DNA from: Terriglobia bacterium
GTDB lineage: Bacteria > Acidobacteriota > Terriglobia > Terriglobales > Acidobacteriaceae
Direction: 5' to 3'
Length of the DNA stretch: 64,000 nucleotides
NCBI GenBank assembly: GCA_020073015.1
Contig: JAIQFZ010000007.1
Coordinates: 1-64,000, forward strand
Position 1 is the stretch's first letter. Each line of letters begins with the position of its first letter. The translations under genes and the position numbers were made by a program. This document shows, piece by piece, positions 2,291 through 50,147 of this stretch. The notes under the pieces were generated by a model, which saw only the letters and a list, made by a program, of their open reading frames with translations, did not search any database and was not told where the DNA came from.

Positions 2291-3613
2291 ATGGACGCCC
2301 AACAGAAGCAGAGAGTGGTGATTGTGGGGGCCGGCTTCGGAGGCTTGACGGCAGCGCGCCGCATCGCCCGGCTGCCCGTCCAAGTCACGGTCGTCGACCG
2401 GAAAAACCATCACACCTTCCAACCTCTGCTCTACCAGGTAGCCACCGCCGGCCTATCGCCGGGCGAAATCGCCGCTCCCATCCGCTGGATATTAAGAACC
2501 TCTTCCAATGTTGAAGTGTTGCTTGAAGAAGTGCTCGATTTCAACCTGGAGCAAAAAAAGGTCATCACGAAGGACCAGACCCTGGACTACGACTATCTCA
2601 TACTCGCCTCCGGCGCGACTCACGCTTACTTCGGTCACCCGGAGTGGGAGCCCCTCGCCCCTGGCCTGAAGACCATCGAAGACGCCCTCGAGATCCGCCG
2701 CCGCGTCCTGCTGGCTTTCGAACTGGCGGAGCGGCGTGCCGCCAGTGGGCAGGGAGAGATGCCGCTCAACTTCGTGGTCATCGGAGGTGGCCCCACCGGC
2801 GTTGAACTGGCAGGGACGCTGGCGGAAATCGCCCGCCACGCCCTGAAACACGAGTTCCGAGCCATCCGGCCCGAACAAACTCGCATCCTGCTCATCGAGG
2901 GCAGCCATAGGGTATTAGGCACCTATTCCGAAGAACTGTCCCAGAAGGCCAAAGAGCAGTTGGAACGCCTCGGGGTCGAAGTGCGGACGTCCAACCTGGT
3001 GACTCGCATTGAGCCGGGCGCGGTCGTCATTGGCGAGGAGAGGATCCCAGCCCAAGTAGTCCTGTGGGCCGCAGGCGTCGCAGCCTCGCCCTTGGGCCGC
3101 CGGTTAGGCGTTCCCATCGACCGTGCCGGGCGCGTGCTCGTCCAACCCGACCTGAGTATCCCCGGCCATCAGGAGGTCTTCGTCATTGGGGACCTGGCGG
3201 CTCTGGCGGACGAGAGCGGCAAGATGCTCCCGGGCGTGGCTCCCGTGGCCATCCAGCAAGGCGAGTATGTGGCCAAGACGATCGCCCGCGACCTGGAACA
3301 TCAGCCCCGACGCAGTTTCCATTACCACGACAAGGGCAGCTTGGCCACGATCGGCCGCGCCGCCGGCGTCGCCCAGTTCGGCAATCTCAAGCTTTCCGGT
3401 TACTTTGCCTGGCTGGCATGGCTGTTCATCCACATTTTTTTTCTGATCGGTTTTCGTAATCGCCTGCTCGTCATGATCCAATGGGCGTGGTCGTATCTCA
3501 CCTACGAGCGGGGCGCGCGCCTCATCACCGGGAGCAACCAATTGCCAGGATGGACTGAGCCGCCGGAGAAAGCCGCCGAGACAGACATTCCCGCGGGCCA
3601 GTCACGGGGATGA
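2291..3613 (+). CDS. ndh: type II NADH dehydrogenase (NDH-2)
   Basis: A 440-residue FAD- and NADH-binding flavoprotein that passes electrons from NADH to quinone at the inner face of the membrane without pumping protons. Residues 9-17 hold the FAD-binding GAGFGG motif. A second Rossmann motif (GGGPTG, about 165-170) binds NADH, and the VFVIGDLA segment is the C-terminal FAD contact. The C terminus (about 375-415) is aromatic and hydrophobic with a basic tail, as expected for the amphipathic membrane anchor of NDH-2. The ATG has GAGGGG (2281-2286) eight bases upstream. Its stop overlaps the next start as ATGA. Confidence 0.92.
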   Translation: MDAQQKQRVVIVGAGFGGLTAARRIARLPVQVTVVDRKNHHTFQPLLYQVATAGLSPGEIAAPIRWILRTSSNVEVLLEEVLDFNLEQKKVITKDQTLDYDYLILASGATHAYFGHPEWEPLAPGLKTIEDALEIRRRVLLAFELAERRAASGQGEMPLNFVVIGGGPTGVELAGTLAEIARHALKHEFRAIRPEQTRILLIEGSHRVLGTYSEELSQKAKEQLERLGVEVRTSNLVTRIEPGAVVIGEERIPAQVVLWAAGVAASPLGRRLGVPIDRAGRVLVQPDLSIPGHQEVFVIGDLAALADESGKMLPGVAPVAIQQGEYVAKTIARDLEHQPRRSFHYHDKGSLATIGRAAGVAQFGNLKLSGYFAWLAWLFIHIFFLIGFRNRLLVMIQWAWSYLTYERGARLITGSNQLPGWTEPPEKAAETDIPAGQSRG

Positions 3614-5250
3614 TCACCCGTCCTCCCTGCCGATATAATCAGAATGTCTTGAAACGCGCGGTTGTCCTCATCCTTACTGTGCCCTTGCTCCTTGTGGCAT
3701 ACCTTTATGCCCAAGGGAGACCCGCCTCTGGCCGGACGCTGGTCGTTGTTCCCTTCGAAAACACTTCTCCCACACCCGGCTTGGAATGGCTGAGCGAGGC
3801 CTTTCCCGAGGCTTTCCACCAGCAGCTCAATTCTCCCGTTGTGTATGTGGCCAGCCGCGACGAGCGGCTGCGCGCTTACGATCGCCAGGGCATCCCGGCA
3901 AATCTGCATCCTTCGCGCGCAACGCTCTACCGTCTGGCCGAGCAGATGGATGTCGACTACGCGGTGCTGGGGTCGTACAGCTATGACGGCGTGCATCTAA
4001 CTGCCACCGCCCAGTTACTCGATATGCGCGCTCAGAAGCTGCTGCCGGCAGCGACCGAAACCGGACCGCTCACCGATCTCGGCAACCTGCAATCCGCGCT
4101 TGCCTGGGATCTGCTTCGCTTGATCCGCACCGATTTCTCCCTGCCCAAAGAGAAATACGTGGCCAGCGTTTCTCCCGAACGCTTAGACGCCCTTGAGAAC
4201 TACATCCGCGGCATGCTCGCCGTCAGTGGGGAAGAAAAAGTGCAGTACTACAAAGAGGCCGTCCGGCTCAACCCCGCATATCCCGAAGCATGGCTCGAGT
4301 TAGGCAAGACCTACTTCGCCCAGCACACCTACGAACCCGCGATCAGTGCCCTCAGCCAAGTCCCGTCTTCTTCCGCGCTCGCGCGTGAGGCAAATTTCTA
4401 TCTTGGTCTCGCCGCTTTCAGTCATGGAGACTTCGCCAGAGCCGAAAACGCGTTTCAATTCGTTGCCACTCGCTTGCCGCTGGCCGAGGTCTACAACAAC
4501 CTCGGAGTCGTCGCGGCCCGCCGTGGACGCAAGAACTCCGCCGAGTATTTTGAAAAGGCCATCCGCAACGATCCAAGCGACCCGGAGTACCATTTCAACC
4601 TCGCCATTAGTCTCAGTCTCGCCGGTGACCGCGCCGGCGCTGCCCGCGAATTGCGCACTGCCCTCGATCGTCGTCCGAGCGACCTCGAGGCCAAGGCCCT
4701 GCTCGACTCCCTGACCCCTCCTGCGGCCGGGGTTGTGGCGGCCGCATCCATCGCCAAGGCGCCGGCGCAACGCATGAAACACAACTACGACGAAAACACC
4801 TTCCGCCAGATGACCGTGCAGATCCAAAGCTGGGCAGAGCAGCAATTCGCCCGTTCGGATCCCCGTTCCCACGCCCGCTATCACGTCGAGTTGGGCCGCG
4901 AGTTATTGGCCCATGGATTTACCGCCGAAGCAGAGAGCGAGTTCAACCACGCGGCCATGGTCGATTCCGCCAGCACCGCGCCCCTCACCGGCCTCGCCGA
5001 GGTTTCTGTTGCCCGCGGTGACGCCCGCGAAGCCCGAACTCGGGCGGAGGCCTCCTTGCGCCTGCGCGAGTCTGCCGATGCATACGTTGTTCTCGCCGGG
5101 CTCGATTTGAGCGAGAATAGAGGTGAAGCCGCCGCCCAGAATGTGAATCGGGCCGTACAACTGGAACCCGGCAACCTCGCGGCCCAGAACCTGAAGCGCG
5201 CCGTAGCAGCCAAGCTCGCGGAGAAAGCGCAGCCACTGCCGCAACCATGA
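3610..5250 (+). CDS. TPR repeat protein, exported or membrane-anchored
   Basis: A 546-residue protein. Residues about 15-35 form a signal peptide or signal anchor. Residues 40-170 (starting LVVVPFENTS) resemble the nucleotide-binding-like fold seen in CsgG/FlgO-type and adenylate-cyclase-associated TPR proteins, and the rest is at least seven TPR-like helical pairs. It probably acts as a periplasmic scaffold. The ATG overlaps the ndh stop (ATGA). A TTG at 3649 is an alternative start, because a TATAAT lies at 3634-3639 and the signal peptide starts right there. The stop overlaps the nfeD-like start (ATGA), so the three genes are translationally coupled. Confidence 0.75.
   Translation: MITRPPCRYNQNVLKRAVVLILTVPLLLVAYLYAQGRPASGRTLVVVPFENTSPTPGLEWLSEAFPEAFHQQLNSPVVYVASRDERLRAYDRQGIPANLHPSRATLYRLAEQMDVDYAVLGSYSYDGVHLTATAQLLDMRAQKLLPAATETGPLTDLGNLQSALAWDLLRLIRTDFSLPKEKYVASVSPERLDALENYIRGMLAVSGEEKVQYYKEAVRLNPAYPEAWLELGKTYFAQHTYEPAISALSQVPSSSALAREANFYLGLAAFSHGDFARAENAFQFVATRLPLAEVYNNLGVVAARRGRKNSAEYFEKAIRNDPSDPEYHFNLAISLSLAGDRAGAARELRTALDRRPSDLEAKALLDSLTPPAAGVVAAASIAKAPAQRMKHNYDENTFRQMTVQIQSWAEQQFARSDPRSHARYHVELGRELLAHGFTAEAESEFNHAAMVDSASTAPLTGLAEVSVARGDAREARTRAEASLRLRESADAYVVLAGLDLSENRGEAAAQNVNRAVQLEPGNLAAQNLKRAVAAKLAEKAQPLPQP
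3634..3639 (+). promoter_or_regulatory. possible internal -10 element
   Basis: TATAAT directly upstream of the possible TTG start at 3649. No convincing -35 hexamer was found, so a separate promoter for the TPR gene is only possible. Confidence 0.35.
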
Positions 5251-6798: not shown

Positions 6799-7590
6799 AT
6801 GGAACTCGGGTTCCCCGTAGTCACTGTTGCCATCGTCATCGTCATCATCTACCTCCTGAGTTCCATCAAGGTCCTTAAGGAATATGAGCGCGGCGTGATC
6901 TTCCGCCTCGGTCGGCTGCTCGGAACCTCGAAAGGCCCGGGCATCATCCTGGTGTTCGCCCCGGTGGACCGCATGGTGCGCATCTCCCTCCGCCAGGAAG
7001 CCCTCGAAGTCCCGCCCCAGGACATCATCACCCGCGATAACGTCACCCTGAAGGTCAACGCGGTCATCTTCCTGCGGGTCATCGATCCGAACAAAGCGGT
7101 GGTCGAAGTCTCCAACTACGTTTACCAGACCTCGCAGTTCGCCCAGACCACGTTGCGCTCCGTTCTCGGCGAAGTCGAACTCGATGAACTCCTCGCTCAT
7201 CGCGAGAAGATCAACCTCCGCTTGCAAAGCATCCTCGACACGCACACCGCGCCCTGGGGTGTAAAAGTCGCCAACGTGGAAGTGAAACAGGTGGATATGC
7301 CCGAGTCCATGCTGCGGGCGATGGCCAAGCAAGCCGAGGCCGAGCGCGAAAAGCGCTCCAAGATCATCCACGCCGAAGGCGAGTTCTCAGCCGCCCAGCG
7401 TCTAGTCGATGCCGCACACCTCTTGTCCACGGAACCCGTCAGCGTGCAGTTGCGCTATCTGCAAACCCTCACCGAGATCGGGGTCGAGAAGAACACCACC
7501 GTCGTCTTCCCCGTACCGGTTGATTTCTACTCCGGAATTCAGAAGTTGCTGGCTGGCCCGCCCGCGCCCGCCAAGCCGGCAGGGAGCTAA
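6799..7590 (+). CDS. slipin (stomatin/Band7 SPFH protein)
   Basis: A 263-residue integral membrane scaffold. One N-terminal hydrophobic helix (about 5-22) is followed by an SPFH/Band7 domain (about 25-190) with the typical [10 protein letters not shown] opening and [13 protein letters not shown] motif, and a coiled coil rich in Ala and Glu ([19 protein letters not shown], about 175-195). Slipins form membrane microdomain oligomers and are genetic partners of NfeD proteases; the NfeD-like gene is immediately upstream. The ribosome binding site is TGGAGG before the ATG. Confidence 0.92.
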
Positions 7591-7608
7591 AACGCAGCAT
7601 TACTTCCT

Positions 7609-8208
7609 ATGCCTACTGTGGAACAGGACACGGAAATCACTCTCGGCACCGGCCGCATGCTGGCTTTGTTCTTTGGCCTCGTACTGATTTGTGCCGTCTT
7701 CTTCGCGGTCGGTTTCTCTCTCGGGAAGAAGGCCTCTACCGTCGGCTCTGCTGCCATAACGGCACCTTCCAATGAGACTCCTGCAACGATTGTCCGCCCC
7801 TCGGCGGCCAAGAACACGCAACCCGTACCCTCCGCGGGAGACCTCAGCTTCTACAAAACCGTAGGTGAGAAATCCGCCGACACAGGACTTGCCGCTCCTC
7901 CGGACTCCCAGCCACAAACAGCTGCCAGGTCCTCTGCCGAACCGCCGAAAGCCGATACCGGCGCCGCCCCACCCACACCGGCGAGTGGCAGCTACTACGT
8001 TCAGGTTGCCGCCGTAAGCCGCCAGGAAGATGCCGACGCCCTGGTCGAAGCCCTGAAGAAGAAGCAGTACCCCGCCTTCTCTGCCAACAACAGTCCGGCC
8101 GACAAGTTTTATCACGTGCAGGTCGGCCCGTATGCCGACCTCAAAGAAGCGGAGGCCATGCGAGCCCGCCTGATCAGCGATGGCTACAACCCGATTGTCA
8201 AGAAATAG
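7609..8208 (+). CDS. SPOR domain membrane protein
   Basis: A 199-residue bitopic protein: a short cytoplasmic N terminus, one membrane helix (about 18-40), a Pro/Ala/Ser-rich linker (45-125), and a SPOR domain (about 128-199) starting YYVQVAAVSRQEDA. SPOR domains bind glycan strands lacking stem peptides, usually at division septa. It lies 18 bases after the slipin stop, so they are probably cotranscribed. The link with the peptidoglycan-recycling genes further on is only thematic. Confidence 0.88.
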   Translation: MPTVEQDTEITLGTGRMLALFFGLVLICAVFFAVGFSLGKKASTVGSAAITAPSNETPATIVRPSAAKNTQPVPSAGDLSFYKTVGEKSADTGLAAPPDSQPQTAARSSAEPPKADTGAAPPTPASGSYYVQVAAVSRQEDADALVEALKKKQYPAFSANNSPADKFYHVQVGPYADLKEAEAMRARLISDGYNPIVKK

Positions 8209-8352
8209 CTGCTAGCTTGAGGCTCTACACCTTGTTGCAGAGTCAGGGGCAGTGTTCTTCCTTTGGCGATGCCGCTTGGGTTTCGGAACTGCGGTCACCT
8301 AGGGCTGGGACATGTGCTAGAAGCCAGCAGCGATCTGTTACTCTTCCTCATC

Positions 8353-8652
8353 ATGCCTCTCTCCGCCGCGCACCTCGACCGATTCCTCCACGCGATCGCT
8401 GATCCCACCCGCCGTCGAATTCTGGAGGCTCTTAAAGAAAAGGGTGGGAACTCCCTCGGCAAAGACATCGGCCTGTGCGCCTTCGACATTGAGCAGCGTG
8501 TCAAACTCGCGCAGCCTACGGTTTCTCATCACATGCGGATTTTGGAGAAGGCCAGCCTGGTGTTGGCCACCCGGGAAGGACACTGGCGCTGGTACCGGCG
8601 CAACGAGAGATTGCTGTCTGAAATGATACGATACTTGAAGAAACAGATCTAA
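8353..8652 (+). CDS. ArsR-type winged-helix transcriptional regulator
   Basis: A 99-residue winged helix-turn-helix. The segment AIADPTRRRILEAL is the ArsR signature helix and QPTVSHHMRILEKASLV is the recognition helix region. An insertion (GLCAFDIEQRVK) precedes the recognition helix, and no canonical metal-binding CVC motif is present, so the signal is unknown. The frame is open to 8263, but the ATG at 8353 starts where family homology starts. It is separated from the kinase gene on the opposite strand by 15 bases. Confidence 0.75.
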   Translation: MPLSAAHLDRFLHAIADPTRRRILEALKEKGGNSLGKDIGLCAFDIEQRVKLAQPTVSHHMRILEKASLVLATREGHWRWYRRNERLLSEMIRYLKKQI

Positions 8653-8667
8653 CTTTCAGATAATAAA

Positions 8668-11600
8668 CTACATACCAGCCCTAGCAGTGGCGGATCTTTC
8701 TTCTGTCTTTCCAGGCTCTCCCTGCTCCTTTTGCAGCAAGCCCCGCACCTGCGAGATCAGATCCGCTACCTCAAATGGTTTCGCGAGCCACGGCACACCG
8801 GCCTCCTGCAAGAAACTGCGAGTCGGGGGATCGGTGACGCTCGAGAACGTCAGGAGAAGTTTCTTCTCCATGCCGGCGCAGTGAGCCGCGAGCCAGGCAT
8901 GCATTTCCTGTGCGCTGCACCCGCCCGGCATGCGCCCACTCATCACGATCACATTAAAGGAGCCGCTCTGGAGCCGTTCCTTGGTTTCATCCACGTTCAT
9001 CGAGGTGGTCACCTCTGCGCCCGCGCCCACCAGCACATCACGCTCAAACTCAAGCACCGCTTCCTCGTCTTCCACCAACAGGACGCGCCCTTTTAGCAGC
9101 GCTTCCCGTCGCGGAGACGGGACTGCCTCCACCGGCGCCGGTTTCTCGCTCGCGCGTAAGCGGACTTCAATGGTCGCGCCGCCCTCCTCCCGGTTGCGCG
9201 CAACAATCTCTCCGCCGTGTTCCTTCACGATGCCATAGCAAATGCTCAGTCCCAGGCCGGTTCCCTTGCCCACGGATTTCGTGGTGTAAAACGGATCGAA
9301 AATGCGGTTGGGATCCTTGATCCCGGGGCCGCTGTCGTCGAACACCACGCAAACAAAGTTGTCCTTCCTTAAGGCACGGACCTTGAGTACGCCGCTGCCG
9401 CTGCCCTCGAGCATCGCATCCAACGCGTTATTGATGATATTCAGGAAGACTTGCTCCAACTGGTGAGGATCCGCCACCACCGAAGGCAGGTCCTCAGGAA
9501 CGTCGCGCTCCAGCGTGATGTTGCTCACCTTCAAGTCGTACTCGCGCAACGCAAGCGATTCGTCGAGCACTTTCCGCAGGTCCACTTCGTTTTTCTGAGG
9601 CTTACGCTGCCGCGCAAACGAAAGCAGGTTTTGCACAACCCGGTGGGTCCGCTGGGCCTGCTTGAACAGTTTCCGCACGTAATCGGTCGACTGCGGATCC
9701 AGACCCGCGCCTTCCAGCAGTTGCGCGTAGCCCAGGATCGCTGTCAGCGGGTTGTTCAACTCGTGCGCCACTCCCGCAATCAACTGTCCCACGGCCGACA
9801 TTTTCTCGCTCTGCAGCAGCTGCTCTTGCGTCTTCCGCAAGTCTTCGTAGGCACGGCAGGTTTCCTCGTACAGTTGCACTTTTTCGATGGTGGTGGCCAG
9901 TTGCCGGCTGATCGCCACCAGCAGGTTTTCGTCGTTACTCGAGTAGTGCCGATTTCCCTTGCTGGCAATGCCCATGATGCCGATCGGCTTGTCCTTGCTC
10001 CACAGCAGGACCCAGATCCAGTACGGCAAACGGTCCGCGCACGCAAACTCCACCACCGCCGGCGGCAAGTGCGGCACGAAGTCCTGGGTCACCACTTCTG
10101 CCCGCGATCGCATCACCAGATCGCCGAAGCCCTCCGGAAAGTTCACTTCCGACATTTTGATGCGCGCTTCGCTGCGCGGTCCCCAACCGGCTCGCCGCCG
10201 GTAGGTTCCCTCCGCACCGGCCGCCAGATACACCGAGCCCGTTTCCGCCCCAAACAGCGAAATCACCTGGCGCAAGGTTAAGTTCAGGATTTCATCCAGA
10301 TCGAAGGATTGCGTCGCGATCACGGCCATCGCATTGAGCGCATTCAATTCGCGATTGCGCCGGCGCATCTCGTCTTCCGAGCGCTTCTTTTCTGTAATGT
10401 CGAGCACAAATCCCTGATAGCGCTCGATCTGTCCGCCCGCATCCCGGGTCGCGAAGCAACTCTGCGCCACCGTCAGCAGGGTCGCGTCTTTGCGGCGTAC
10501 CGTGACTTCAAAATTTCGCACGTAGTTGTGCGCTTCCAGTTCCTTGCGGAATGCCTCCCGCTCCTCCGTCACGGCGTACAGCACGCTGCCCAGATCGAGC
10601 GCCATCAATTCATCGCGGTTACTGTAGCCCAGCATGGTCACGAAAGCATCGTTGCAATCGATCAACGTGCCGTCCAGCGTGGCGACGAACACACCTTCCT
10701 GGGCCTGCTCGAACAGCATGCGGTACTTCTCTTCCGCCGCGTGGTGTTCGGTCGTATCGCGGACCACGTGAATCGTGCCCTTCTGCTGGCTTCCCTGCTC
10801 CGCGTACGACGAGGTCGAGACCAGCGACTGGCCTCCAAAGCAGGGGTCCTGCCCCTCACTGAGACCCGGCCCGCGTTCACAATACGGACATCCACTCCAA
10901 GCCTGCTGGTTGGGCAGCACGGCATCGCACAGGTTACCTAGCACGTCCGCCGGTGCGCGTCCCAGCCTCTGCAGCAATACCTGATTGGTTTTGAGAATGT
11001 GAAAGTCGGCGTCGTGCGCCAGAATCAGGTCCTGGATGGAATCGAAGGTGTTCATCCACTGCCGCTGGGAACGCAACACCTGCTCCAGCAAACGCAGGTT
11101 TTCCACCGCAATGCCCAGCCTCTGCGCGGCCGTTTCCAGGAACTCCAGCTCTTCCAGGGTGTGGCGCGGGCTTCCCGAGCACCCCAGCGAGAGCATCCCG
11201 ATCACCGATTTCTTGCCCTGCACCGGCAGCATCACCAGGTGTCCGACGCCCTGCTTCCGGATCTGGGTTCGCATCTCCTCCGGAACGTCCGCCGGCCTCA
11301 GCACCGCGACCCGGCTCTCTTCGAAAACCCGGCCCAGCGTTTCGTCCATTTCAGCCAGTCCGATGGCCCGCAGGAAATCCCCCGACAATCCCACGTGCTG
11401 CGTGGGCGTCAGTTGACCTGCTTCCATGAGCGCAAACCATGCCGCCTTTGCCCCGGTCACCGCCTTCAATTTTTCTAGAGCCGCCTGCATCATGGGCCCG
11501 TGGTTTTGCGCTCGCGAGATCGTCCCCGTCAACTCATTCAGGACCTCGAGGCGACGCGTCCGCACGCGCGAGTCGTCCAGCACCAGAACAATCATGCTGG

Positions 11601-47095: not shown

Positions 47096-49072
47096 TTACT
47101 TGCAAAACGCGATCTGGTCATAGAGCGGGCTAGGGACACTGTCTCCGTTGGTCAGCAGCACGCCGACCTGCAGCGTGATGAGGTACGCGCAGTGAGCAAG
47201 AGCAGACACGGAGAAGGTGTGGGTGGCTGTCCCAAACCAGTCGCCGGGTTCCGGGATGGGCGGCAACGTGAAGGCATACGGACCTCCGGGGCCGGTCATG
47301 ACGATGCTGACGCCGTTCGGATCCAGGTTCGGATGCGCCGCGGTGAACAGCACCGTCAGTTGATTGGTGAGATGGCCACACGGATGAGCGATCAGTTCCG
47401 CAACGTCGACCATGCAGACTGCGAGCCGACCCGGGGGCTGCAAACCACCATCCCAGTCGGGATGGAGTGTGATGTTGTTGTACAACGTGTTGTCTATGGC
47501 GACGTGGATGCACGTGCCGCCGTCGGTTTCCGAGGCAGGGTTGCCGTGCTGGCGGATGCGCATCCGTATCCCGAAATAGACGTCTTGCGCGAGTGGGTGT
47601 GCTGCCGCCGCCCCCGCGAGGACTCCCGTCTCGTCCGCAGGGGTGAATGGAGCGAGTGATTGTGAAATCAACTCAATCATGTTGCCGTTGGAAGCGAACG
47701 CGCCAGCGGCAGTGAAAGCATTGTTCTCTTGCGGGACCTGGATCCAGCCGTCGGCGGCGATGGTCGCGACTAGTTCGTTCGGACCGACGATCCCGTTGAC
47801 GGTGTATTTCTTGGTATCCATGTGGGGAATCGGAAGTGGGTTGAAGTGTTCCCAGTGGCCGATCTCGGTCCGGGCAATCTGTGCCGGCAAGACGGGCGTC
47901 CAGGCGCCGGTCAGGTTGCCGGCGGCGTCGGTCGGAGCCGTTTCGAAGCGGTATTCCATTGCGACCCCACCCAGAGTTTGCGTGAGGATCCCGTTGAGCC
48001 GCAGCGTTGAGAAGAAAGCACGGTTGTCCGCTTTCGTAAGTCCGTTTCCGGTCAGTCCGCTATTCACGTCGGTGTCGTAGTCGTAGACTCCGATGGACGT
48101 GAACACCGGATACAGGCCCTCGGGTGGGCAGATCAGAATGCAGAACCGGCGACAGATCAGGTAGCAGACCCAGTGGCAGAGCTGAATGCAGAAGCGATGC
48201 AGTTCGAGTTCCTTCAGCAAAGCTCCCCAGGTTTTCCCGTCCCCTGAGCTGACGGCGGTAATCAACCGCTCTACCTCCGCCGGCTTCTGCGCCAGCCGCT
48301 GTGTCGCCTTCGCAAAGGCCAGGGCCTCTTCGAGGTGATTCTTGATTGGCTCCAGCGGAAACTCCCGGCAGAGCGTCAGGCAAACCAGAGTGCAACGCCA
48401 ACTGCAGAACCACTCGCAGATGGCATAGCAGAAGCGAATCAGGTCGGCGCCGCGGATTACCTCGGCCAGCTTCTCGGCGTCCCCGGCATTCGATGCGGCA
48501 ACCGCCCGGTCAAAAGCATCCTTGTGTTCGAGCAACCGGCGCAGAGCCTGGCCCGCCAACCGCAACTCGTCGGCCAGGTTCGGCCGCTCGATTTGGATTG
48601 GACTGCAAACCCAGCGGCAGATCAGCCGGAAATGCACGACACACAGCCAGTGGCAAAATAAGTGACACAATGGCTCGAGCTTGTACTCATTGACGATGCG
48701 CTCGAAGGCGTCCCGATTGCGCTTCTCCAGCACTTCCACCAATTCGCGTACGAGTTTCTCATTGGAAGTGATGCGCACGATCGCCTCTGCGAGCAGACGC
48801 GGGTTGGGCACCTCTTTGTACGGCTTGGGTGGCCCGCACAGTTCGAGGCACAAAAAGATGCACTCCTTGATGCGAATCCACTCGCACACCACTCGACATC
48901 GCGGAAACAAGCCGAGTCGCTTCAGAATGGCCTGAAACTCCTTCGCCTTGCCGGACCGAAACGCCTCATACGCTTCGCGAAATGCTTTCTCATCCTTCGC
49001 GAGACGCCCGATGACACCGACCCCCTCGAGGAGGTCGCGGAATGCGTCATAGTCGAACTCTTGACTTGCCAT
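47096..49072 (-). CDS. four-repeat cysteine-ladder protein with beta-rich C terminus
   Basis: A 658-residue protein without signal peptide. Residues 1-318 are four units of 77-80 residues: a charged helical part, then a hydrophobic helix with Cys at every fourth position. Cys positions are 59, 63, 71, 75, 79; 136, 140, 144, 152, 156; 215-235 in steps of 4; 295-315 in steps of 4. The two missing steps are Arg67 and Phe148. The second Cys is always followed by Glu/His-Trp. Residues 322-658 are beta-rich with five more Cys and no family I recognise. Placing the Cys on one face of a helix suggests metal or redox chemistry, as in Cys-lined copper-storage bundles, but this is inference. GGAGGA lies four bases before the ATG. 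Confidence 0.85.
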   Translation of the reverse strand: MASQEFDYDAFRDLLEGVGVIGRLAKDEKAFREAYEAFRSGKAKEFQAILKRLGLFPRCRVVCEWIRIKECIFLCLELCGPPKPYKEVPNPRLLAEAIVRITSNEKLVRELVEVLEKRNRDAFERIVNEYKLEPLCHLFCHWLCVVHFRLICRWVCSPIQIERPNLADELRLAGQALRRLLEHKDAFDRAVAASNAGDAEKLAEVIRGADLIRFCYAICEWFCSWRCTLVCLTLCREFPLEPIKNHLEEALAFAKATQRLAQKPAEVERLITAVSSGDGKTWGALLKELELHRFCIQLCHWVCYLICRRFCILICPPEGLYPVFTSIGVYDYDTDVNSGLTGNGLTKADNRAFFSTLRLNGILTQTLGGVAMEYRFETAPTDAAGNLTGAWTPVLPAQIARTEIGHWEHFNPLPIPHMDTKKYTVNGIVGPNELVATIAADGWIQVPQENNAFTAAGAFASNGNMIELISQSLAPFTPADETGVLAGAAAAHPLAQDVYFGIRMRIRQHGNPASETDGGTCIHVAIDNTLYNNITLHPDWDGGLQPPGRLAVCMVDVAELIAHPCGHLTNQLTVLFTAAHPNLDPNGVSIVMTGPGGPYAFTLPPIPEPGDWFGTATHTFSVSALAHCAYLITLQVGVLLTNGDSVPSPLYDQIAFCK

Positions 49073-49366
49073 GGTTCCTCCATAAGTTTGACGGATCGTT
49101 GGTGGGGAACAATTAAAAGAGGGCGCCGCCCAACTCATCCCGCCAAGGGCGGAGGATATGAGGGCGCATAACTCGGTGCGAAGGGCCCAAGGATCAACTA
49201 CAAGGGAAGAAGGTTAGAACACGGGGAAGACAGCGCCACTGCAGGGAAGAAGTTACGAGACGGACGCAAATTATGATCGTGATTCCGACAGATGTCAAGC
49301 GTAGAGATACCTTTTGTTCCTGGGCGGCTGGCCCGGGCTATTGTTACTCTCGACGGTGGCCCCTCC

Positions 49367-49667: not shown

Positions 49668-50147
49668 CTATTTTTCTCGCAGCAGGTGCCAGGCTTCTCG
49701 GTAGGCGCCGTAGAGGCCAGGAGTTAGAGGGTAGTCGCGAGGTGCCAGAAGGAGAGTGGTGTGGCCCTGGGCAACGGCGATGGGGACGATAAACCAGCCG
49801 TCCTCGGGAATGATGTGGGCGACAATAAAATCAACTTCCTCGGGTCGATACGGAACCAGGCCTCCGTGTGTGCGACGGCGGCAATTGACATGGTAGCGGC
49901 CGTTACGAAGCGTGGTCGTGGCTTTGACTTGGATGCGCCAGAGGCGATGTCCGGCTTCGAGGATGAAGTCGTAGCGCTCGCTGTCGCCGTAGGGCTTGGC
50001 CACGTGGAAACCCTGGGTGGCAGCTTTGTAAACGAACGCCAGTTCGGAAAGTTCTCCGCGGCGCTTGGTGGTGAGTTCGCGCTCGCGGGCAGTCTTTGGC
50101 CCCTGGGAGCGGGATCGGCCCGCGCCCCTGCTTCTCTTACTTTGCAT
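49668..50147 (-). CDS. PD-(D/E)XK-like nuclease domain protein
   Basis: A 159-residue protein with a basic N terminus (KRSRGAGRSRSQGPK) likely to bind nucleic acid, a helix (TKRRGELSELAFVYKAATQG), then PYGDSERYDFILEAG and RIQVKATT. The order Glu...Asp-x(n)-Gln-Val-Lys fits the PD-(D/E)XK fold as in group I-intron-type and Holliday-junction-resolvase-like nucleases. It may be a DNA-repair or restriction-like enzyme; the substrate is unknown. A terminator-like hairpin lies in its leader. Confidence 0.7.
   Translation of the reverse strand: MQSKRSRGAGRSRSQGPKTARERELTTKRRGELSELAFVYKAATQGFHVAKPYGDSERYDFILEAGHRLWRIQVKATTTLRNGRYHVNCRRRTHGGLVPYRPEEVDFIVAHIIPEDGWFIVPIAVAQGHTTLLLAPRDYPLTPGLYGAYREAWHLLREK

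Follow-up and report, generated by a model that had tools for sequence, protein, structure and literature searches.

What can a bacterial protein do with cysteine at every fourth residue along four of its helices? This question is raised by a gene located on the minus strand of a 64,000-nucleotide stretch of DNA from a Terriglobia bacterium (hereinafter, the window), at positions 47096-49072, whose product of 658 amino acids (aa) carries four such cysteine ladders. An original prediction, made from the sequence, had loosely likened these ladders to the Cys-lined helix bundles of copper-storage proteins (Csp). The analysis presented here retains the ladders, indicates that the Cys of ladders 1 and 2 have defined partners across two antiparallel helices, and leads to a best explanation that is put forward tentatively, with somewhat less than an even chance of being right, i.e., a scaffold of helix hairpins stapled by several rungs of disulfides.

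A conserved family with cysteine ladders

The protein contains 27 Cys, of which 22 fall, exactly as originally counted, within residues 59-315 (257 residues; 48128-48898); the remaining five belong to the C-terminal part. These 22 Cys are distributed among four units of ~78 residues, with ladder-to-ladder spacings of 77, 79 and 80 residues, and each unit closes with a ladder (Cys at positions 0, 4, 8, 12, 16 and 20). From the spacing count and the listing of Cys columns, the following ladders can be differentiated, all on the minus strand: (i) ladder 1, with Cys59, 63, 71, 75 and 79, and Arg67 in the place of the third Cys (48836-48898); (ii) ladder 2, with Cys136, 140, 144, 152 and 156, and Phe148 in the place of the fourth (48605-48667); (iii) ladder 3, with Cys215, 219, 223, 227, 231 and 235 (48368-48430); and (iv) ladder 4, with Cys295, 299, 303, 307, 311 and 315 (48128-48190). 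Ladders 3 and 4 are complete and the other two are short of one Cys each, as had been stated. Segments with at least four of six Cys at i+4 spacing number four in the protein, versus a maximum of two and a mean of 0.014 in 5000 residue shuffles.

Homologues that keep the Cys spacing were found by a search with a profile of 22 units. In total, the family comprises 19 genomes from the window's phylum and from Actinomycetota, with two types of proteins: (i) 11 four-ladder proteins (the window and loci L001, L002, L003, L004, L044, L046, L047, L055, L064 and L065); and (ii) eight two-ladder proteins (L043, L045, L048, L049, L050, L056, L057 and L063). The L003 and L064 sequences, as used, are incomplete at the C end; complete members have 446-787 aa and two or four long ladders. 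Relatives confirmed by tblastn are those of a Solirubrobacteraceae metagenome-assembled genome (MAG; L001), a Thermoleophilaceae MAG (L002), a Bryobacterales MAG (L003) and the isolate Specibacter cremeus (L004). Among the genomes scanned with the profile, members turned up in 8 of 399 at the level of the window's class, in 3 of 297 at that of its phylum and in 8 of 270 at that of its family; around L001 and L004 (Actinomycetota), three scans gave 2 of 299, 2 of 345 and 2 of 268. The single protein, used as a query against 101 close relatives, was positive in two. The counts are not additive, since the samples overlap one another and contain the genomes on which they are centred. The ladder family is sparse in every sample and patchy even inside one genus. 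Over 16 members, 12 columns are invariant, nine of them Cys. Regarding the Glu/His-Trp pair that follows the second Cys, originally considered fixed, it turned out to be the trait of a subfamily.

The window protein has no significant match in Pfam, NCBIfam, PHROGs or the PDB sequences, and neither do 16 members in Pfam, NCBIfam or PADLOC; as for known anti-phage defence, no PADLOC family appeared in these 16 members at expectation values (E) up to 0.1. CATASP matches (best E 0.11, in two of the 16, below the cut-off in one scored row) were taken as chance. Single-protein queries yielded no relatives on plasmids, phages or viral contigs. By title or abstract opening, none of the matches listed in a literature search describes the ladder family. 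In short, it is a conserved family without a model in the libraries searched, in agreement with the earlier remark that no described family shows this pattern. Furthermore, the gene is under purifying selection, which was counted in favour of the stapled scaffold: the ratio of nonsynonymous to synonymous substitution (dN/dS) is about 0.13 between the window protein and L044, with a nearly saturated dS of 1.64; three comparisons of two-ladder proteins gave 0.04-0.11, and the value of 0.44 between the window and L002 is unreliable at such a distance.

The helix-like character of the ladders is clear in an AlphaFold2 model of residues 1-318 (5 rows; predicted local distance difference test, pLDDT, 93.0; predicted template modelling score 0.90), which contains 16 helices, four per unit, the ladder helices being 23-24 residues long (56-79, 133-155, 212-234 and 292-314). 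According to this model and the alignment, three helices plus ladder helix 1 make up unit 1 (residues 10-79; 48836-49045), followed by units 2 (81-156; 48605-48832), 3 (158-235; 48368-48601) and 4 (237-315; 48128-48364). When the ladder domain was compared with the PDB by Foldseek, the best E was 0.041 and none was at or below 0.001; a second look at these matches with VIA gave at best Z 3.6 (glypican-1; root-mean-square deviation, rmsd, of 5.5 over 133 residues), and the viral library gave no Foldseek match at or below 0.001. The predicted domain appears to have no convincing PDB match, which does not in itself prove a new fold.

The attached beta-rich domain is also recovered in the full-length AlphaFold2 model (6 rows; mean pLDDT 66.2), which is good in the ladder part and poor after residue 316. 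This C-terminal part (residues 321-658; 47099-48112) resembles, at low model confidence, two tandem Ig/FnIII-type sandwiches. Its best Foldseek match is RelA (E 8e-4; a weak model and a common fold), and Big_13 was matched there at E 0.14 in one of 16 members.

Probable cysteine pairs and a proposed stapled scaffold

Four-ladder (n = 11) and two-ladder (n = 8) proteins were aligned separately, and every Cys-bearing column was listed. Ten columns in the ladder domain of the four-ladder proteins hold Cys in some rows and another residue in others, and eight of these form four pairs of identical pattern: (i) 67/148, with Cys in L065 and L055 only; (ii) 75/140, lost in L055 only; (iii) 79/136, lost in L001 and L065; and (iv) 199/313, with Cys in seven of the 11 proteins. 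The first three connect ladders 1 and 2 antiparallel and in register, and their residue numbers always sum to 215. The 67/148 rung is replaced by Arg against Phe, Tyr, Trp or Thr in nine of the 11 proteins; Arg67 and Phe148 of the window protein are, it seems, the two halves of a single missing rung. The two-ladder proteins have four varying columns in their ladder domain, which correspond to pairs 80/139 (the counterpart of 79/136, lost in L057) and 115/150 (Cys in L049 and L050 only).

By row shuffle, at least four identical pairs arise in 0.04% of cases in the four-ladder set; for the ladder domain of the two-ladder proteins, at least two arise in 0.5%. If ladder 1 is matched with 2 and ladder 3 with 4, antiparallel and in register, the partner is also missing for 24 of 25 missing-Cys cells; the best alternative map tried reached 18 of 21, all stemming from the single inherited 67/148 difference. 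Trees read by eye indicate independent losses of 79/136 in L001 and in L065, and a loss of its counterpart in L057. In total, ~six paired changes were read for the four-ladder proteins and two for the ladder domain of the two-ladder ones, versus two unpaired changes. Judging from these alignments, the Cys of ladders 1 and 2 are very probably pairwise partners. Cross-helix pairs of this kind suggest staples or two-thiol metal sites rather than one shared pool of Cys. The Csp-like bundle of the original prediction, with all thiols on one face, is not supported in that form: Cys variation points to defined antiparallel pairs between ladders 1 and 2, and no Csp-type profile matches any of 16 members.

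In the explanation preferred here, the protein would form a stable scaffold, mainly of helices, where rows of Cys-Cys bonds staple the ladder helices in pairs. Ladder 1 would run antiparallel to ladder 2 with five rungs (59-156, 63-152, 71-144, 75-140 and 79-136), the sixth (67-148) being replaced by Arg and an aromatic residue. Ladder 3 would likewise run antiparallel to ladder 4, with six rungs from 215-315 to 235-295; this second set is proposed solely by homology with module 1-2, because the module of the two-ladder proteins aligns with each half of the four-ladder ones. The stapled domain would bear the Ig/FnIII-like sandwiches, which would probably bind something outside the cell or at its surface, and the protein would meet an oxidising place despite the absence of a recognisable signal peptide. 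Counted in favour of disulfides were the occurrence of isolated pairs away from the ladders and the precedent of the alpha-hairpinins.

The geometry of such rungs deserves a comment, as the thiols had been placed on one helix face. This holds loosely: a simple geometry model ruled out that all Cys lie on one face of a straight helix, given that the five four-residue steps of a ladder drift ~200 degrees. In a two-helix model, all six rungs come within disulfide range if helices of normal twist (100 degrees/residue) wrap around each other right-handedly by 9-12 degrees/residue; with helices underwound to 97 or 95, right-handed wrapping of 6-12 or 3-9 degrees/residue, respectively, suffices, and between 0 and 4 rungs fit if the pair is straight or left-handed. 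Six rungs per helix pair are possible sterically if wrapping is right-handed, but the wrapping required is strong, and this model of ideal helices is a feasibility estimate, not a structure.

Several observations weigh against the stapled scaffold. To begin with, a crude hydrophobicity scan (no dedicated predictor) found no signal-peptide-like stretch in any of the 19 N-termini, as had been anticipated for the window protein, which makes the reducing cytosol the default location. The row shuffle ignores relatedness, and the 24 of 25 counts sequences, not events. Two changes in the ladder domain are unpaired: Cys299 is Ala in L001, where its supposed partner Cys231 is retained, and an unpaired Cys stands at column 117 in L046, L064 and L047. 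Ladders 3 and 4 show no paired loss, the Cys299 exception being the sole change there. In the C-terminal domain, most variable Cys are without a convincing partner (many occur in one protein, and the alignment is poor), and the window protein has there an odd number of Cys, five. Some do agree: in the two-ladder set, 345/378 (Cys in L043, L063 and L057 only) and 249/274 (Cys in L043 alone), and Cys565 and Cys628 stay together in all nine four-ladder rows that reach there. As most of these Cys are unpaired, the pairing claim is limited to the ladder domain. Finally, as a control, the same count was made on 12 copper-storage homologues encoded on plasmids; they were chosen by hand among the 30 rows listed of a total of 483 records. 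Their 11 varying columns include eight column pairs with identical patterns, arising from (i) four columns lost in two haloarchaeal proteins; (ii) one pair in Pantoea; and (iii) one pair at the alignment end; the other three columns vary unpaired. Correlated Cys loss is not unique to disulfides but occurs at metal sites too. Covariation as a proof of disulfides is weakened by this control and by the mostly unpaired Cys of the C-terminal domain. In contrast with the control, the ladder losses come by twos, across helices and in one register.

Alternative explanations and gene neighbourhoods

The alternative that survives best, and which is considered possible but on the unlikely side, is a cytosolic store or buffer of soft metals: reduced Cys pairs would each hold Cu(I), Hg(II), Ag(I) or a similar ion in two-coordinate S-M-S fashion, with ~11 ions or more per four-ladder protein. 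The leaderless N-termini suit this location, and pairwise loss fits two-ligand sites as well, since the Csp proteins themselves show correlated losses; the published account assigns two Cys per site to most MtCsp3 Cu(I) sites (PMC5171941). Some gene neighbours also point in this direction: HlyD_D23 (CusB or HlyD type) and ACR_tran efflux genes precede the ladder gene of L047 (3647-7942), a gene for tyrosinase, a copper enzyme, follows that of L049 on the same strand (3498-4934), and two ArsA-type ATPases lie upstream of that of L044 (5136-7220). Against it, these are three of 19 loci (27 neighbouring proteins were profile-tested overall), and the window's four tested neighbours (a PDDEXK_5 nuclease, a BRCT protein, a VasI-like protein and a weak DUF5818 match) include no metal-type gene. 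In addition, no Csp-type Pfam-A family matches any of 16 members at E up to 1, nor does any in NCBIfam; most Csp3 Cys bridge two Cu, according to the same account (PMC5171941), whereas the ladders lose Cys by twos across helices, with one exception; three variable columns of the control change unpaired; and the isolated pairs 199/313 and 115/150 would be unusual in a store. All in all, a metal role keeps in its favour that two-thiolate sites would give the same pairs, that the Csp control co-loses Cys and that two loci have efflux or copper-enzyme neighbours; what finds no support is the Csp-like form as originally put.

An improbable alternative is a redox-responsive cytosolic protein, whose thiol pairs, reduced at rest, would zip into disulfides under oxidative stress and alter the action of the Ig-like part or of a partner. 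It would account for Cys that are paired although the protein is leaderless, and some neighbours suggest regulated expression: (i) a Sigma70_r4 protein is encoded ~80 bases upstream of the two-ladder gene of L043, on the same strand (7358-8110); (ii) in L055, a sigma-like gene, slightly under Pfam cut-offs, lies between the ladder gene and a CHAT-TPR gene; and (iii) BTAD-domain regulators with 47% mutual identity stand beside the ladder genes of L002 (498-1271) and L057 (3677-4483), both found via Actinomycetota searches. Opposed to this, no neighbour is common to most of the 13 loci compared. To our knowledge, 11-12 pairs is far above the number found in redox switches.

It is very improbable that the role of Cys is limited to its small size, allowing helices to pack closely in a right-handed sense, as in small-xxx-small motifs. 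Small residues repeated at i+4 do suit right-handed close packing, but Ala or Ser is rare on the ladders (6 of 360 positions across the 19 proteins), nine of the 12 invariant columns are Cys, and replacement is mostly pairwise. Modification of the Cys, e.g., radical SAM cross-linking as in Cys-Xaa-Xaa-Xaa repeat target peptides, is hardly credible, as its two hints are a TIGR04117 score that is not significant (E 0.67, one of 16 members) and a radical SAM gene near L046, the only one among the 27 neighbours tested.

As regards the neighbourhoods in general, the open reading frames (ORFs) of 13 of the 19 loci were compared all-against-all (188 ORFs, ladder genes included) and no other gene was common to most, i.e., no conserved operon partner was found; the remaining loci were compared with selected neighbours. 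A DUF1360-type protein with a CxxC motif is encoded directly downstream of the ladder gene in L046 (6502-6831; score 20.7, just below the cut-off of 21) and L047 (10610-11029); it exceeds the cut-off in one of 16 ladder genomes, was seen only in this lineage and could be a thiol partner. CHAT-TPR proteins are encoded near the ladder genes of L046 (10051-13767), L064 (3736-6000) and L055 (11075-13924), the first two belonging to one genus. In the window, the ladder gene ends with a stop codon at 47096-47098 and starts at an ATG (49072) that has a GGAGG ribosome-binding site just 5' (49077-49081) and lines up with the starts of relatives. Upstream of it, 49671-50147 encodes the PDDEXK_5 endonuclease-like protein, and the product of 45580-46407 matches VasI, of type VI secretion (E 5.6e-8).

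The L003 protein (7989-9807) is a mosaic with respect to that of the window: its ladder domain is 40.9% and its C-domain piece 75.0% identical, with frame breaks between the parts, which reflects either domain exchange or an assembly fault. By eye, the post-ladder part of the 787-residue member of L065 (937-3297) is unlike other C-domains, and its ladder domain may have changed partner domain.

Comparison with known systems

An alpha-helical cystine ladder, with long helices zipped by five or six consecutive disulfides, in tandem, combined with Ig-like domains and reaching an oxidising location despite lacking Sec and Tat signals, may constitute a new architecture, although this is proposed with considerable doubt. 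The family is named by no library used here, its helical domain is confidently predicted and Foldseek, with its second look, brought no convincing PDB match. The rung map specifies which Cys goes with which, and either outcome would be of interest, whether bacterial proteins without a leader turn out to have helix pairs zipped by several disulfide rungs or to bind soft metals at ordered two-thiol sites that differ from those of Csp. A ladder scaffold could also interest protein designers.

Among known systems, RbmA and other tandem FnIII/Ig-like proteins resemble the end of the window protein: residues 551-658 have RbmA as their best VIA match (Z 7.7; rmsd 2.9 over 95 residues, in a region with ten-residue mean pLDDT of just 25-72). 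The fold is a common one, identity is 8-10% and Z is below the level of kinship. We know of no ladder domain in RbmA-type proteins. The TIGR04117 radical SAM target peptides share, judging by the family name, Cys at each fourth residue, but the match is the insignificant one mentioned above and a radical SAM gene was seen near one locus only.

The likeness to Csp1 and Csp3 consists of Cys on helices (18-19 in Csp3 versus 22 here), CXXXC motifs and, for Csp3, the lack of a leader (PMC5171941). The differences are that Csp chains in the PDB have mostly 108-133 residues, mixed Cys spacing and free core thiols, and the ladder protein has strict i+4 ladders, a ~78-residue repeat, apparent cross-helix pairs and extra beta domains. 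Csp forms a single four-helix bundle and the ladder domain is confidently modelled with 16 helices; no Csp appears among the listed Foldseek and VIA matches, which is not evidence of difference.

The ladder proteins do not belong to the alpha-hairpinin family proper: they are proteins of 446-787 aa with two or four long ladders, instead of short plant peptides with two CXXXC motifs and two disulfides. They would have up to six rungs per helix pair in tandem modules with a four-helix unit, they are bacterial, and they carry an Ig-like part and no recognisable signal peptide. In any case, alpha-hairpinins offer the closest parallel to the proposed stapling: their two antiparallel CXXXC helices, with Cys at i, i+4, are joined crosswise, first to last, by Cys1-Cys4 and Cys2-Cys3 bonds (PMC7191063), and the same antiparallel arrangement is indicated by the covariation of Cys in ladders 1 and 2.
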